The notes beneath the pieces were generated by a model. It worked only from the letters and a program-made list of their open reading frames with translations, was not told the origin of the DNA and searched no databases. A stretch of 64,000 nt of DNA, taken from NCBI GenBank assembly GCA_947625225.1, contig CANQNQ010000002.1, positions 62,001-126,000 on the forward strand, read 5' to 3'. How positions within the stretch are numbered: the first letter of the stretch is position 1; each line of letters opens with the position of its first letter. Made by a program: the position numbers and the translations under genes. Shown piece after piece: positions 25,363-59,228 of this stretch. The DNA is from an uncultured Clostridia bacterium (lineage in GTDB: Bacteria > Bacillota > Clostridia > Christensenellales > CAG-917).

Positions 25363-26118
25363 TTATGCGCAGATGTAGTTTTCAGCCCAGTCGTAGCTTT
25401 TGAGGAATATTTCGGAGGGGCGTGAAATGGCGCCGTCAAGATAGTCCCAATAGTCGCAAGTGATGTTCTGTTTGTTCAGGATGAGTCTTGCGCGCTCGAA
25501 AGTGACGCACTCGAAGCCCGCTGCCTTAAGGGTCTTTCTCAGGCGCCAGACGGCGTCACGGTAGAGAGGTTTTGCCTTGTCAAGGTTCATATCCGGCCAC
25601 AGTTGGGATATTGCGTCGGACATCTCGAGGATCTTGCCGTTGTAGGTCAAAAGCAGTGCGAACAGTTCTTTTGACTTGCCCGATGAAAAGCGCACAGCCA
25701 TATCGTTGATGAAGCAGTCAAAGGCGCCGAACATATTGGCGGTCATAGTGGGCGCGTCCTTGCCGAGGGAGGAGAGGATAAGTTCGAGCGAGCTTGCCTC
25801 GTAGGGTTTGTACAAAAACGCCATGACGTGCGAGGCGACGTCCTCGTCGAGGTCGTCCTTGGTGAAGTCAAGCGCGGTGATGAACACTATGCGGATCGCG
25901 GGCAGGGTGGCGATCAGCTCGCGCGCGAGGGCTATGCCGTCTATGTTTGGCATGCGTATGTCCAGAAATGCTGCGACGATGTTGTTCCTGCCGGCGTAGT
26001 CTAATATCTCGCGCTCGTCGTCCTTGAAGAATTTGTATTCGATGTCGGAGCGGTGTATTACGTCGGACAAAAAGGTATGCAGGGCGCTCATTTCGTCGTC
26101 AACGATGATTATTTTCAT
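25363..26118 (-). CDS. Response regulator, receiver plus winged-helix (SARP-like) output
   Basis: A 251-residue protein. A receiver domain (1-120) begins MKIIIVDDE, with acidic D7-D8, phospho-acceptor D53 in FLDIRMP, T81 and K104 in FLYKPYE. The C-terminal part (about 140-235: AFDCFINDMAVRFSSGKSKELFALLL, ISQLWPDMN, YRDAVWRLRKTLKAAG) resembles the transcriptional-activator winged helix of SARP/OmpR type. The frame opens 10 codons earlier, but ATG 26118 is the family start and has AAGGAG about 11 bases before it, inside the kinase gene. It overlaps the kinase gene by 20 bases, so translation is probably coupled. Confidence 0.88.
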   Translation of the reverse strand: MKIIIVDDEMSALHTFLSDVIHRSDIEYKFFKDDEREILDYAGRNNIVAAFLDIRMPNIDGIALARELIATLPAIRIVFITALDFTKDDLDEDVASHVMAFLYKPYEASSLELILSSLGKDAPTMTANMFGAFDCFINDMAVRFSSGKSKELFALLLTYNGKILEMSDAISQLWPDMNLDKAKPLYRDAVWRLRKTLKAAGFECVTFERARLILNKQNITCDYWDYLDGAISRPSEIFLKSYDWAENYICA

Positions 26119-27511
26119 TTTTTTCAAACTCCTTGGACGTGATGACAATGCTTACGCACGTCCCCTCTCCGGGGGCGCTGTTTATGACGGGCGTGATACC
26201 CATAAGCACTTCAAACCGTTCGGTAGAATTTTTTATACCGCACGATAACGGGGGGGGGGTACTTTTTGAGTCAAATCCAACGCCGTTGTCCACAATACGG
26301 ACGACAGCGTTGCCGTCCTTGGTGAGGCGGGAGGAGATTTTGATGTAGCCGTCGGGCTTCTCGTTGACCTTGCTGTGGCGGATGGAGTTTTCAATGTATG
26401 GTTGCAGGGAAAGCACAGGGACGTAAAAATCGGTGTATTCTATGTCGAATATGACGTTGAACTCACGGTCGAAGCACAGGTTTTCAAGCTCGATGTATGC
26501 CTGAATGTTGTCCAGCTCCTTTTCAAAGGGGATGAGGTCCACGTTTCCCGCTTCGACGTTGGCGCGCATATGTTTTGAGAACAGCGTGATCGCGCGGTCG
26601 CCCAGCTCGAAGCTGCGACGGTACAGCCCCTGTATGGCGGCAAGGGAGTTGAAGATGTAGTGCGGCTTGATCTGCGCGCGCAGCGCCTCCGTCCTCACGC
26701 GCTCGTACTTGAGCTTGTATTCGCTTACTTTCAGAGCGGCGCGGTCGCCTCGCACAGCAAAGGCGATGTAGGTCAACGCAAACAGCGCGATTTGACATAT
26801 AGCGTAAAAGCTGGTGAAGCCGTAGGGCGCAAACGTTATCCATCCGCCGCACATAATGTTGCTAAGGCTGCTGCCTATCGCGGTGGCAAGCAGCAGGGAA
26901 GTGGTGTAAAAGGGCGGGTCGTCAATGCCGGACTTTAACACCTTGCCCATTATGATCGACATGACGACGAGTAACGCGGTGACGTAAACGAAGTATGCGA
27001 TAGGCTCAAGTCCCACAAAGCTCAGCCCCGCATAGGCACCTATGCATAAGGCGGCAGCGGCGACAGTAAGCGCGCGCACCGCTCGCGGCGTACGAATGGA
27101 GTAGGTGTAGCGCTGGAAGGAGAGTACGGAAAGGGTGAGCAGTACAAAGAACATGAAGTAAACTATCCCGAACGCGCGCTCGTCAACTACGGCGCCCTTG
27201 TCTTTAAGAAAGAGCGCGAAGTCGGGCGAGAACACCGTCGCGCCTATAAGACACGCCGCTATGAGAACGGTGTGCAACGTGGAGTCCGATATCTTGAACA
27301 TGGAAATGAGCTCCACCGTGAAGATCAGCGAAAAAAAGCACATCACAAAAATGGCCAGCACTTTCACCGCGTACAGATAGGAGCGAGAGGCGCTGTGCCC
27401 GAGCGCGCCGAGTATCGCCGCTATGACGGAGGCGACAACCATTAAAAACAGTTCCGACGTCGTTAGAAACGCCGCTTTGCGTTTGATGTCCATACACTCA
27501 AAAGATAACAT
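26099..27511 (-). CDS. LytS/YehU-type sensor histidine kinase with an internal poly-G tract
   Basis: A 470-residue protein with seven or eight hydrophobic helices (about 18-255) and no extracellular domain. A His_kinase domain follows: H284 in QIKPHYIFNSL, QPYIENSIRHS (N box), VDNGVGFD, and GEGTCVSI at the end. Such kinases sense cell-wall or metabolite signals and phosphorylate the adjacent regulator. The coding strand has ten consecutive C at 26250-26259, read as Pro-Pro-Pro (about 419-421) between the DNGVGF and GI-N-ER boxes where ATP-lid sequence is normal. A slip of one base would remove the last 50 residues and shift the stop used for coupling to the regulator gene. Starts 27511 and 27493 are both possible; neither has a good ribosome site. 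Confidence 0.88.
   Translation of the reverse strand: MLSFECMDIKRKAAFLTTSELFLMVVASVIAAILGALGHSASRSYLYAVKVLAIFVMCFFSLIFTVELISMFKISDSTLHTVLIAACLIGATVFSPDFALFLKDKGAVVDERAFGIVYFMFFVLLTLSVLSFQRYTYSIRTPRAVRALTVAAAALCIGAYAGLSFVGLEPIAYFVYVTALLVVMSIIMGKVLKSGIDDPPFYTTSLLLATAIGSSLSNIMCGGWITFAPYGFTSFYAICQIALFALTYIAFAVRGDRAALKVSEYKLKYERVRTEALRAQIKPHYIFNSLAAIQGLYRRSFELGDRAITLFSKHMRANVEAGNVDLIPFEKELDNIQAYIELENLCFDREFNVIFDIEYTDFYVPVLSLQPYIENSIRHSKVNEKPDGYIKISSRLTKDGNAVVRIVDNGVGFDSKSTPPPLSCGIKNSTERFEVLMGITPVINSAPGEGTCVSIVITSKEFEKNENNHR
26250..26259. repeat. Poly-G tract of ten within the kinase gene
   Basis: Ten G on the forward strand inside the histidine kinase reading frame, flanked by AC and TA. The frame is intact in this copy. 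Confidence 0.9.
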
Positions 27512-27596
27512 TCTATTTTGCCGCTGTCAACATCGAGGCGGCAAAAATCGCCGACAGGTCAAAAAAATTTAAGGAATTTTTTTAGGCGGCGCGCGG

Positions 27597-27618
27597 TTTA
27601 GCACTTTTTTAGCACTTT
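27597..27618 (+). promoter_or_regulatory. Perfect 11-base direct repeat upstream of the LRR lipoprotein gene
   Basis: TTTAGCACTTT occurs twice head to tail with period 11, one helical turn, in the 149-base divergent region between the kinase and LRR lipoprotein genes. It is a candidate operator for the response regulator; that assignment is inference. Confidence 0.5.
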
Positions 27619-27660
27619 ATTTTCTATGATGATGTAAACACCCAATAATGGAGGTAATTT

Positions 27661-29070
27661 ATGAAAAAAGCAAAATTTGTCGTGGCGCTGATGTTTGTCA
27701 TGGCGCTGGCTCTTGCGCTCTCACTGACGATGGTGGCGTGCAACGGCGACAAGAACAACGATAACAACGACAACGGCCCCAAGTTTGAGACCCAAGTCCT
27801 TGAAGATGGCACCATCTCGGTCACAGGGCTGAGCTCCGTGTATGAGCCGGAAGACCATACTCTGACCATTCCCGAGACCCTCGAGGGCCGCACCGTCACG
27901 CAGGTCACCATTTCCAAGGGCTATGACCCATCGACACGCAGCGATATCATCTCGCCCAACATTTCCGATATGGTGTTGCCGGACACCGTTCGGCAACTCG
28001 GCTGCGACGAGTATACGTTTGACGGCATACCCGGCATCGCGCGCTTCAACATTCCGAGGGATCTGCGCAACATCACCTCGCACGCCTTCGACGATATCGA
28101 GCTCTCCACCACCACCGTTGACGGCATGAGCTATCTGGGCACCGAGGAAAACCCCTATATGATACTGTGGCAGGTGCAGTCCAACAGTGAGCACCTCACC
28201 GGCAACGTCACGCAGGGCACCAGAAAGTTGACTTTGCGCGATGAAACGACCATCGTCGGCCCAAACGCCCTCCTCAACAGATATACCAGCAGCTACACGT
28301 CGGTAGATATTGTGGACTTGAAGAACGCCACCATTCTGTGTGATGAGGCATTCTCGCAGTACAACCGCACCGATTGCCCCGTCAGCAGCATAATTGGCGT
28401 TGACAAACTCAAATATGTGGGCGACTATGCGCTGCACGGCTGCAACATGAGCGCAGTGTACTTCGGCGCAGATCTGGAATACCTCGGCAAAGGCGCGTTT
28501 ACCGGAAGCAGCAAGTTGGAGACCATCGACATCTCAAACTCCGCTAAACTCAAGACCATCGGCGATTACTGCTTCGAGGGCTGCACCAAAGTCGGTTCCC
28601 GCTTGGATCCCACCCTCAACATTCCCGCGTCCGTCGAGATCATCGGTGACTACGCGTTCAGCAGCGACAGCTTCGTTGAGATCGTCTTTGGCTCCAACAG
28701 CAAGCTCAAGGAGATCGGCGACTATGCCTTTGCAAGCAACAGCAAGCTGTCAGGCTCCCTCGAGCTGCCCGAAGGTCTGCTCTCCATCGGCAGCAACGCT
28801 TTCTACGGCAATTATTCTTTGGGTTCGGTCACCATCCCCGCTTCCGTCACGTATATCGGCCGCGGTGCGTTCGATCCGAATCCCAGAACGGGTAGCTTGC
28901 AAGCGACCTTTGCCGATACCAACGGTTGGGGCGTTTCCAAGGACTCCGGCGCCGAGCGCAACGAGATGACCACTCCAGCCCTGCGCCCCGCCACCGATCC
29001 CAACGGCCCGGCGATCAACGGAAATCTGCTGCAGGGAACGTACGTGGACTACTATTGGAGGAAGGCCTGA
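27661..29070 (+). CDS. BspA-like leucine-rich-repeat lipoprotein
   Basis: A 469-residue surface protein. The signal peptide runs to a lipobox TMVAC (C27), then an Asn/Asp-rich linker. From about residue 60 to 420 it carries LRR_5 (BspA/TpLRR) repeats, recognised from LxxIGDYCFEGCTKV, IPASVEIIGDYAFSS and LPEGLLSIGSNAFYG segments. These form a curved beta-solenoid used for adhesion to host proteins or other bacteria. GGAGG lies 8 bases before the ATG. It is transcribed away from the two-component genes with a tandem TTTAGCACTTT repeat between them, so it may be a target of that system. A terminator follows. Confidence 0.9.
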   Translation: MKKAKFVVALMFVMALALALSLTMVACNGDKNNDNNDNGPKFETQVLEDGTISVTGLSSVYEPEDHTLTIPETLEGRTVTQVTISKGYDPSTRSDIISPNISDMVLPDTVRQLGCDEYTFDGIPGIARFNIPRDLRNITSHAFDDIELSTTTVDGMSYLGTEENPYMILWQVQSNSEHLTGNVTQGTRKLTLRDETTIVGPNALLNRYTSSYTSVDIVDLKNATILCDEAFSQYNRTDCPVSSIIGVDKLKYVGDYALHGCNMSAVYFGADLEYLGKGAFTGSSKLETIDISNSAKLKTIGDYCFEGCTKVGSRLDPTLNIPASVEIIGDYAFSSDSFVEIVFGSNSKLKEIGDYAFASNSKLSGSLELPEGLLSIGSNAFYGNYSLGSVTIPASVTYIGRGAFDPNPRTGSLQATFADTNGWGVSKDSGAERNEMTTPALRPATDPNGPAINGNLLQGTYVDYYWRKA

Positions 29071-56192: not shown

Positions 56193-59100
56193 ATGAAAAA
56201 AGTAATGGTGGGTATTTTGGTACTCATTCCCGTCATAATACTGTTGGTAATGGCGGCGGTGTCCACCATTGTATCGGTGCAGGCATGGATCGCCGTCGAC
56301 GACCTTCTTGTGACCTATCGCGGCACGAACGAGGCGGCGGATATGCTTGTCATCGACTACGAAGGCCCGCAAAAGGAATTTGACCTTGGCGACTACGTGG
56401 ATCTTACCGTGCTTCCCACAAGAGCAAATATGTATACGCTGGAATGGAGCATCGTCGGAGACGTGCAGTGCACGGATCTGGCTTATGCCGCGCGTTACCA
56501 GCAATATCTCGACAGTCTTGAAAATCACGAGGAAGACATCGTCCCCGTGGAGCCCGTCGTCACCTTCCTCTCTCCCATAGGCGAGGACGGTCTGTCGGGC
56601 AGCAACGGCAAACTGAAGGTCAACAGTTTCTGCCGCTTCACCGTCATGGTCAGGGCTGAGAGCGTGTCGCGCACATTCTCCGTGTCCTTCGAGGGGCATG
56701 TGCCAAACGCCATAATGCTTACGGGCGCAAAGGATTCCCTTGGCGTGGGCGAAAGCATGAGGCTGAATGTCACCTACGACCCGCTTGGCAGCGTAGTCAA
56801 CAACACAAGCTGGACAAGCAGCGATCCGTCCGTCGCGACTGTCGACGCCAACGGCACCCTGACTGCGATATCGGAGGGCAGCGCGGAAATTACAGTGAGC
56901 ACTTTGCGCGATGACGACAAGGTGGTGACCTCCAACAAATTTGCGATAACCGTGTTCGCTTCCGTAAGCAAATACGGCGACAGGCTGACCACATCCAAGC
57001 GCACGGTTTCTCCCGAAGAGCTGGGCCTGAACGTGGAGGATCTGCTGATGGAGCAGTCCGACGGCGTAACTTTGGACGGCGACGGCAAGCTGGTGTTTAC
57101 CGGCGAAAACGCAACTTTGAAAACCTCAAAAGGCGACTTGAACATCGACTTCTGCGATGAGGACGCCATAGAGATAGACAACGCGGCAAACTACGATCTG
57201 GACAGCGGATACGTGTTGGAAGTGGGTCCGCTGAAGCTGGATCTGGGCGTGCGTTGGCAGGACAGACTTAAGAGCGGCGCGCCCGCAGGCGTCGTGTGGA
57301 CGTCAAGCAATCCGCACATCGCAAGCGTGGACCAAAACGGCGTAGTAACGCCGCTTGGCAACGGCGTTGTCACGATAAGCGCGCAGCTTTCGGCAGGCGC
57401 CTCTGCGGCAGCAGATCGACCCACCGTACGGGGGGGGGTATCGGAAAGCATAGCGAGCATAAGGCTGAACGTTCAGCAGAAGCTGGACAGCGTGCTGCTC
57501 AGGACGGACGACGCCTCTTTGCAGGTGGGGCTTGCAAGAGAGACCGTGTTCGCCTCCGAAAAATTTGCGGACTTTGCGGCGGGCAATACGCAGCGCGTGC
57601 CCAACAGCGCGGACATCCTCGTCAGAGGGGAGCCCAAGAGGGCGGATTACGCTACGGATAGCGATCATGCCGAGGCGGTAAAGGCGTTTTACAACTCCTT
57701 CAACTTCGAGGTGATAGAGGGCGGACAGTTTGCCGCATTCTCGGACATCGCGACCCCCAACAGGCTGTACTTCGACAGCGCGGCGCTCGAGGGCAAGGGC
57801 AAGCAGACGCTCACGATCAAGGTCACCGCAAAGTTCCCCAAGTACGAGACGGAAGAGGCGCTGAAGATGACCACCGCATATGTGCACATCAGGTGCGTAT
57901 ACGGTGTGGAGGCGCAAAACTACGAGCAAGTGAAGGCTGCAACCGTCATACAGAGAGAGTACTCCGAGCGCGAGGGCAACTTCCTGCCCGAAAAGCTGGT
58001 GTTTGAGTCCGCGCCCAATCCCAAGGACAACAAGACTGTCAAGGTGTACGACGGCGTCGAGATAATCAACAACTACGCAATATGCCTTGTGGGCGACGTC
58101 GTGTATCCCGAAGGTATGGTGATACAGTACGACGACCTCATCTACCTGTTCGGCGACTTTTACGGCAACGGACACATGGTCTGGAGTCAAGCCACGCTGT
58201 CAGATGGATTGACAAGCTGTTATTGGGACGCCAACCTGCTCACAATGGGCAGAGGCGGACTGATGATAAGCAACGCCACTGTGCGCGCTCACGTGTTGCA
58301 GGACGGCACCCTTACAGAGGACAACGTCGATTATATCAAGATCAGCGGTATCAATATAGAAACCTACGGCGACGGGTCGGCGCACAACGAGGGGTATAAG
58401 CACCTCAACAACGACCGCATAGAGTTCTGCATATTGGAAAACGCGCACACCGCCATACGTCCGGTCAACGCCAGCTATACGGTGGACGGCAGCATACTGC
58501 GCAACTGCACCTCATGCGCCATATACAACTCCGAGGGCGTGGAGGATCACAGCGACGCAATATATCTGCTGCATGTCGAAGCGACCCTCAACAACCTCAT
58601 CGCGTCCAACAATATGGGCACGTCGTTCGGATTCTCCTATCAAAGAGTTACTTTGAAGAACGACCAGTCTCCCAGATTCGGCGCGACCAAGCAAGAGAGC
58701 GAGCAGTGGTATCAGGAGAACGTTGCGGACAAAGGTTACACGGGCAAGATAAAGCAGACGGGCTTTCTTGATATATACAATTGGATGAACGTCAACGGCG
58801 CCAAGCTGATAAGGACGGGCATGTCCGAAGTGGACAACGTCATTGCCACGCTGGGCGGCGATATGCTTAAATACTGCGACGCGTTTGATGACGCGAGGTA
58901 TATGTATAACGATGATTATTACTACCACCTCGGCTTCTTCGTAAGCGGCATAAGCACGGGACAGGGCATCTTTGACGAGGCGATATACCTTGAGACTACG
59001 TTTGAGGACAACCGCTTCATATGCAAGTACGCCCGCGACCTGGTGGATGAAAACGGCGAACCGCGCGTTCCGTCCGGCTCGCAATATGCGGGCGCAAGGG

Positions 59101-59228
59101 TGGCGGCGAGGCTGCTGGGCAACATGTCCATATGGCTGTACGGCTACAACAATCAATCCACGCTGACGCCGGCGTCATCTTACACGGTAAACGCCAAGCT
59201 GATAAACCATCTGCACGGCGAAGAGTAA
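56193..59228 (+). CDS. Giant anchored surface protein with Ig-like (BIG_2) and beta-helix-like domains, paralogue 1
   Basis: A 1011-residue protein. An uncleaved N-terminal helix (about 4-30) is followed by an extracellular region starting QAWIAVDD. BIG_2 modules are seen at about 175-255 (TSWTSSDPSVATVDANGTLTAISEGSAEITV) and 350-430 (VVWTSSNPHIASVDQNGVVTPLGNGVVTISA). After a linker, residues about 570-880 resemble a right-handed beta-helix (NDRIEFCILENAHTAI, YTVDGSILRNCTSCAIYNS). Nine G at 57430-57438 are read as Arg-Gly-Gly-Val (about 413-416) in an insertion absent from paralogue 2; slippage would stop translation. The ATG has AAGGAGAA upstream. It follows the ABC genes in one unit; the link with transport is inference. 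Confidence 0.85.
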   Translation: MKKVMVGILVLIPVIILLVMAAVSTIVSVQAWIAVDDLLVTYRGTNEAADMLVIDYEGPQKEFDLGDYVDLTVLPTRANMYTLEWSIVGDVQCTDLAYAARYQQYLDSLENHEEDIVPVEPVVTFLSPIGEDGLSGSNGKLKVNSFCRFTVMVRAESVSRTFSVSFEGHVPNAIMLTGAKDSLGVGESMRLNVTYDPLGSVVNNTSWTSSDPSVATVDANGTLTAISEGSAEITVSTLRDDDKVVTSNKFAITVFASVSKYGDRLTTSKRTVSPEELGLNVEDLLMEQSDGVTLDGDGKLVFTGENATLKTSKGDLNIDFCDEDAIEIDNAANYDLDSGYVLEVGPLKLDLGVRWQDRLKSGAPAGVVWTSSNPHIASVDQNGVVTPLGNGVVTISAQLSAGASAAADRPTVRGGVSESIASIRLNVQQKLDSVLLRTDDASLQVGLARETVFASEKFADFAAGNTQRVPNSADILVRGEPKRADYATDSDHAEAVKAFYNSFNFEVIEGGQFAAFSDIATPNRLYFDSAALEGKGKQTLTIKVTAKFPKYETEEALKMTTAYVHIRCVYGVEAQNYEQVKAATVIQREYSEREGNFLPEKLVFESAPNPKDNKTVKVYDGVEIINNYAICLVGDVVYPEGMVIQYDDLIYLFGDFYGNGHMVWSQATLSDGLTSCYWDANLLTMGRGGLMISNATVRAHVLQDGTLTEDNVDYIKISGINIETYGDGSAHNEGYKHLNNDRIEFCILENAHTAIRPVNASYTVDGSILRNCTSCAIYNSEGVEDHSDAIYLLHVEATLNNLIASNNMGTSFGFSYQRVTLKNDQSPRFGATKQESEQWYQENVADKGYTGKIKQTGFLDIYNWMNVNGAKLIRTGMSEVDNVIATLGGDMLKYCDAFDDARYMYNDDYYYHLGFFVSGISTGQGIFDEAIYLETTFEDNRFICKYARDLVDENGEPRVPSGSQYAGARVAARLLGNMSIWLYGYNNQSTLTPASSYTVNAKLINHLHGEE
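57430..57438. repeat. Poly-G tract of nine within surface protein 1
   Basis: Nine G inside the reading frame, flanked by AC and TA exactly like the kinase tract at 26250. The frame is intact here. Confidence 0.9.

Follow-up and report, generated by a model that had tools for sequence, protein, structure and literature searches.

An in-frame C10 tract in a LytS-type histidine kinase gene of an uncultured Clostridia bacterium: a candidate contingency locus

In a LytS-type histidine kinase gene from an uncultured Clostridia bacterium, ten consecutive C residues of the coding strand, read in frame, probably form a contingency locus (we put the probability at roughly 0.6) – a reading reached by analogy with other poly-G tracts of this lineage. 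The tract lies in a stretch of 64,000 nucleotides that was analysed as a whole (the window; Table 1). Slipped-strand mispairing at replication would be expected to change its length by one base: with ten, seven or thirteen C, a full-length kinase able to phosphorylate its partner regulator would be made, and with other lengths the protein would end just past its DNGVGF motif, lacking the G2 box along with the final ATP-binding strands. A kinase truncated in this way would be expected to be inactive, leaving the regulator unphosphorylated and, through loss of translational coupling, probably also less abundant. Because the regulator would be unphosphorylated, and because a repeat that it presumably binds replaces the –35 box of the neighbouring LRR lipoprotein gene, expression of that gene should shift – the direction, like the binding, being a prediction – heritably, reversibly and cell by cell. 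If this is true, single cells randomly toggle a sensing system and probably also a neighbouring surface protein.

Table 1. Features of the window and promoter tracts elsewhere in the same genome (window positions, or contig and position)
Feature	Position	Strand	Source
C10 homopolymer (G10 on +) coding T-P-P-P	26250..26259	-	sequence, alignment, structure model
LytS-type histidine kinase gene, 470 aa	26099..27511	-	ORF list, profile matches
Premature stop for C9 or C12 (425/426 aa)	26233..26235	-	frame enumeration
Premature stop for C8, C11 or C14 (432-434 aa)	26211..26213	-	frame enumeration
Kinase promoter-like site TTGACA-17-TATCTT, -10 at 27507-27502	27502..27530	-	promoter search
Response regulator, REC and weak Trans_reg_C winged helix; start codon ATG at 26118, preceded within the kinase end by AAGGAG	25363..26118	-	profiles
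Perfect tandem repeat, 2 x 11 bp, TTTAGCACTTT, likely operator of the regulator	27597..27618	+	repeat search
TATGAT, probable -10 hexamer of the LRR lipoprotein gene	27625..27630	+	sequence, inference
BspA-type LRR lipoprotein, 469 aa, PF13306, divergent from kinase	27661..29070	+	ORF list, profile match
Second in-frame tract (G9), within the Big_2 surface protein gene at 56193-59228	57430..57438	+	frames, profile match
Promoter tracts TTGACA-AATTACT-G10 or G9-TATTAT	C1:74488, C2:166313		own genome
Promoter tract with TTGAAA -35	C3:127879		own genome
Promoter tract TTGACA-ATC-G11-TTG-TATCCT	C14:15743		own genome

Read directly, the forward-strand run is exactly ten G long, and the coding strand over it is ACC CCC CCC CCG, giving Thr-Pro-Pro-Pro; a sequence-only reading of the window, which had described an in-frame ten-G tract encoding Pro-Pro-Pro within the kinase, is borne out in this respect. 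In the translation the site is flanked by DNGVGFD and GIKNSTER, and from its position we take the loop to be the ATP lid, the boxes being named here as they are generally understood. The kinase matches the PF06580 His_kinase profile above the family cut-off (E 6.5e-16) and HATPase_c more weakly (E 2.6e-4; 21.8 bits vs a cut-off of 26.4). The LytS-type features found are this His_kinase domain and the N/G1 and G2 boxes, together with a membrane N-terminus read off the sequence. An AlphaFold model, built on eight sequences, is poor in the membrane half and good for the larger part of the catalytic half; in it the tract residues fall within 409–423, an irregular stretch linking a strand to a helix, and the model's confidence dips at the tract loop (mean pLDDT 60 over residues 411–420). 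As the best promoter-like site overlaps the start at 27511, the real start of the kinase may be the ATG at 27493 instead; one such site was found vs 1.7 expected in shuffles, a match that is weak alone and carries no above-chance signal.

When the tract length was varied by script, a full-length product was obtained only at 10 ± 3n C (469, 470 and 471 aa for C7, C10 and C13). C9 and C12 gave 425 and 426 aa, and C8, C11 and C14 gave 432–434 aa (433 for C11), with the early end preceding the G2 box in every case; the claim that a one-base slip would truncate the kinase thus holds on frame enumeration in both directions. The same reading had proposed that a slip would alter the coupling of the kinase stop to the overlapping regulator start, and this fared less evenly. 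The normal kinase stop (26099–26101) lies beyond the regulator start, an overlap of 20 nt, and the slipped stops do move, to about 93–115 nt upstream of the regulator ATG. That ATG, however, has a Shine–Dalgarno sequence of its own, and because AAGGAG stands a few bases ahead of it, the regulator would still be made, perhaps in smaller amounts, so that the effect on coupling is probably partial.

The regulator matches REC (1.9e-11) and, below the cut-off, Trans_reg_C (E 0.087). Regulators of the SARP/OmpR type bind direct repeats that recur every 11 bp close to the –10 box of their targets, and the window's only period-11 repeat as long as 2 x 11 bp stands between the kinase and the divergent LRR lipoprotein gene, followed six bases downstream by TATGAT, itself 30 bases upstream of the lipoprotein ATG. 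No TTGACA-like –35 was found ahead of TATGAT; the tandem repeat occupies that place. The repeat is likely, judging from its sequence and setting, to be the operator of the response regulator, and the LRR lipoprotein gene is likely to be the regulator's target, since a perfect repeat stands where its –35 would be. A possible link of the tract to this gene, which the sequence-only reading had raised, accordingly gains a plausible route. Within the genome, TTAGCAC-N4-TTAGCAC has its sole perfect copy here; with up to two mismatches there are three genome matches vs seven for a reversed control, and with three mismatches the window count falls below that of its shuffles. As mismatched matches are no commoner than controls, only the perfect copy is telling. 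A homologue in one relative (G090) has the same regulator–kinase layout with a divergent lipoprotein-like gene, but its divergent region contains no perfect 11-bp repeat, and we therefore do not generalise the operator.

By composition, a homopolymer of this length in a reading frame exceeds chance; with protein and codon usage fixed, the excess is weaker. The G/C runs of the window comprise 29 of length five, one of six, none of seven or eight, one of nine and one of ten. Markov models of orders 5 to 2, based on the bacterium's own DNA, predict, for runs of at least nine, 0.001 to 0.09 in the window and 0.03 to 2.1 in the genome, and the draft genome (31 contigs) holds eight such runs plus one G8. 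With amino acids fixed, by comparison, the longest C run in the kinase gene reached at least ten in about 24% of 2000 synonymous-codon shuffles, since Pro is most often encoded by CCC (60% of its codons). This frequency is the main weakness of the switch finding. It favours a chance run – Thr-Pro-Pro-Pro in a tolerant ATP-lid loop, spelled in the preferred CCC codon, slipping at a basal rate and unselected as a switch – an account that we nonetheless regard as rather unlikely. The shuffles predict 7.7 C6, 2.1 C7 and 0.5 C8 (about ten runs) in the window's 40 genes vs a single C6 observed, so that long C runs look avoided; Pro triplets are themselves scarce (only 2 in 17,902 aa); and the kinase tract carries the DNA-level border of its genus, a TA immediately 3′ of the run as read on the G strand. 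Besides the shuffle frequency, the C-sense late position of the tract and the fact that both tracts of the window are in frame also weigh against a contingency locus.

The second of these tracts, in a Big_2 surface protein gene, is the only other G/C run of at least nine in the window, and it is rarer under the shuffle null, with at least nine G in 2% of shuffles. Changed to G8 or G10, the gene would encode 419 or 489 aa vs 1011 aa normally, by frame enumeration. In another species, a Big_2-like protein (L144, position 3020) has a G9 of its own about 40 residues further on, as compared by eye; this distance from the position of the window's G9 suggests that the two G9 tracts are separate gains within one gene family.

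The kinase itself has few close relatives. Among 100 relative genomes, one per species, 34 (its own included) contain matches, the best others among the better matches having 32–36% identity and none exceeding 36%; in 43 genomes of the family no close orthologue was found, and only two others pass 1e-40. One further protein (L107:4267-5586) turned out not to be a LytS-type kinase and was removed before alignment A2. In none of the seven aligned homologous kinases is there a Pro triplet at the loop, where the residues differ, or a G/C run of at least seven in the gene, which agrees with the earlier description of the place as unusual for such a run. Homologues without the tract also fit a chance run, as they would make it young or lineage-specific. 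The loop has nine residues in the three nearest homologues vs ten in the window kinase, and C7 would therefore restore the homologues' loop length.

Arguments for a switch come, by analogy, from the use that the lineage appears to make of G tracts elsewhere. Within the genus, 17 of the 20 genomes, own genome included, carry tracts of at least nine G. Genus loci were drawn from the tracts listed as 13 and then 20 regions, followed by 12 more, several of them chosen for looking coding; the frame test was applied to 12 intragenic tracts in genes judged real. In the assemblies, the frames up- and downstream of the tract agreed in seven of these and disagreed in five. Eight further tracts in long frames (L141, L142, L143 twice, and L144 to L147) were all in frame by inspection, bringing the tally, with the window's two, to 17 in frame and five out (n = 22). 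One genome has two paralogous lipoprotein genes in different states, one with an in-frame G10 (L127) and the other with an out-of-frame G12 (L121), while orthologues keep their tracts: G9 in all three species for L122, L142 and L146 (78% and about 72% nucleotide identity around the tract) and G9 in both L137 and L141, at 84% nucleotide identity. Most of the tested intragenic tracts have G in the sense strand and belong to genes for lipoproteins or surface proteins, where several lie close to the 5′ end, whereas the kinase tract is C-sense and lies late in a cytoplasmic domain. A membrane protein with an in-frame C11-sense tract at its start was also seen (L132 3001, genome G016); it presumably resembles members of the acyltransferase-3 family.

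On the G strand, TA follows directly after 13 of 14 clearly intragenic tracts (the 12 of the frame test and the window's two), compared with 80 of 1242 G4–6 runs (6.4%), and after 17 of the 32 genus tracts lacking a promoter-level score. The border is independent of coding strand and frame, C-sense genes, the kinase among them, included. Such indifference to coding strand would also be expected of an element acting at the DNA level – a Gn-TA followed by a –10-like hexamer, the relic or copy of a poly-G promoter landed in a gene, where slippage would be incidental – but we consider this very unlikely for the kinase, where no –35 is in reach (best 3/6 + 3/6, at 26250) and where the loop length, the same as or nearly that of the homologues, speaks against any large insertion. 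A promoter at the kinase tract was likewise rejected as a candidate, on those hexamers for the G strand and by eye only for the C strand. Outside the genus, the TA border looks less uniform by eye among the matches listed.

The same kind of tract recurs in promoters. Of the nine runs of at least G8 in the bacterium's genome, four lie between –35 and –10 boxes of sigma70 type, with spacers of 16–18 nt, and two of these promoter tracts stand about 50 and 94 nt upstream of lipoprotein-like genes (1246 and 1302 aa). In the genus, 11 of 43 tracts (the window's two included) score at least 10 as promoter spacers vs 0.39% of 12,111 random positions. The pattern TTGACA-N3..10-G8-N0..5-TANNNT, searched across the order together with a reversed control, is present in 60 of 248 genomes, the control in none of the genomes listed; in a sample of the class, it was found in 9 of 372 genomes of other orders vs 6 of 19 of this order. 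Spacer statistics were taken from 132 sites among the matches listed, nested duplicates omitted; 123 distinct sites were among them. In 97 of the 123, the –10 has at least 5/6 matches to TATAAT, three bases being fixed by the pattern itself; spacer lengths peak at 15–19 nt, and tract length and remaining spacer correlate negatively (–0.44), as a constraint on their sum would predict. Among the matches listed, genomes of the order have up to 15 pattern matches, some nested, and identical poly-G promoter copies occur in some of them (four in G264, four in G139).

These recurrences also bear on whether the kinase tract could be an error of assembly or sequencing. Homopolymers are error-prone in sequencing and the genome is a draft, yet the frame stays open through the tract, and tracts of this kind occupy promoter spacers and recur at orthologous places across genomes; we hold an artefact to be the least probable account. 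A contingency locus in the kinase remains our preferred reading. A wider proposal is put forward tentatively and is, in our estimate, doubtful: that one DNA motif, the G9..13-TA of the genus, may serve as a portable slippage switch within a poly-G repertoire of the order of the kind found in Campylobacter, placed within promoter spacers, within signal peptides and surface proteins (in both orientations), and, in the window, within a sensor kinase, where a single slip at a regulator would flip a surface gene of the second tier.

Sensor kinases with coding homopolymers have precedents. In Bordetella pertussis, bvgS has a coding poly-C of C6 or C7, in which an extra base truncates the kinase and switches the regulon (PMC1891110). 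Both are sensor-kinase genes with a C homopolymer in their coding region; the bvgS variation is demonstrated, whereas the window's C10 is known from one sequence. BvgS belongs to another kinase family and another phylum. In Helicobacter pylori, a change from C15 to C14 at nt 1261 of the 1347 of arsS (HP0165) brings an early stop (PMC12838425); the accessible text of PMC6083042 and PMC4464171 does not cover this tract, and that of PMC2831843 offers only a list of groups. As in the window, a histidine kinase gene has a long C run towards its 3′ end, but the kinase is of another type and the acid-responsive ArsRS has many targets, vs one likely adjacent lipoprotein in the window. In the gut commensal Bifidobacterium breve, an intragenic G tract in pilus genes slips at replication and turns surface structures ON or OFF (PMC9187656), a G-tract switch acting on pili where that of the window would act on a regulator. 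In Neisseria meningitidis, the length of a promoter poly-G sets porA expression (PMC3639595), which resembles the promoter tracts of this order and differs in class from the kinase tract.

Phase-variable sensor kinases are thus already known (BvgS, ArsS), and the window kinase plausibly adds a candidate case. A literature search, conducted mostly without subscription papers and preprints, returned no description of poly-G tracts or phase variation in this lineage. If the tract slips, a little-known lineage shares a strategy of mucosal pathogens, including its rarer, regulator-switching form. Poly-G promoter spacers, which about one in four of the genomes sampled from the order contain, and the G9+ tracts of the genus can be tested in existing metagenome reads, and the pattern would make expression state readable from DNA; the order's broader poly-G repertoire merits separate study.

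Some tracts of the bacterium's own genome fall outside these classes. The surroundings of a G10 (L031 4001-4010) and of the G8 (L035 4001-4008) show no convincing ORFs. A G13 (L030 4001-4013; C1:128720-128732) lies upstream of a 776-aa gene, in a short leader ORF that has promoter-like boxes and a Shine–Dalgarno sequence; only one of the three leader frames (e.g. that of G14, 62 aa) crosses a hairpin-like stretch and a T run and ends just ahead of the Shine–Dalgarno sequence of the 776-aa gene. Its layout makes this leader a possible phase-variable attenuator.
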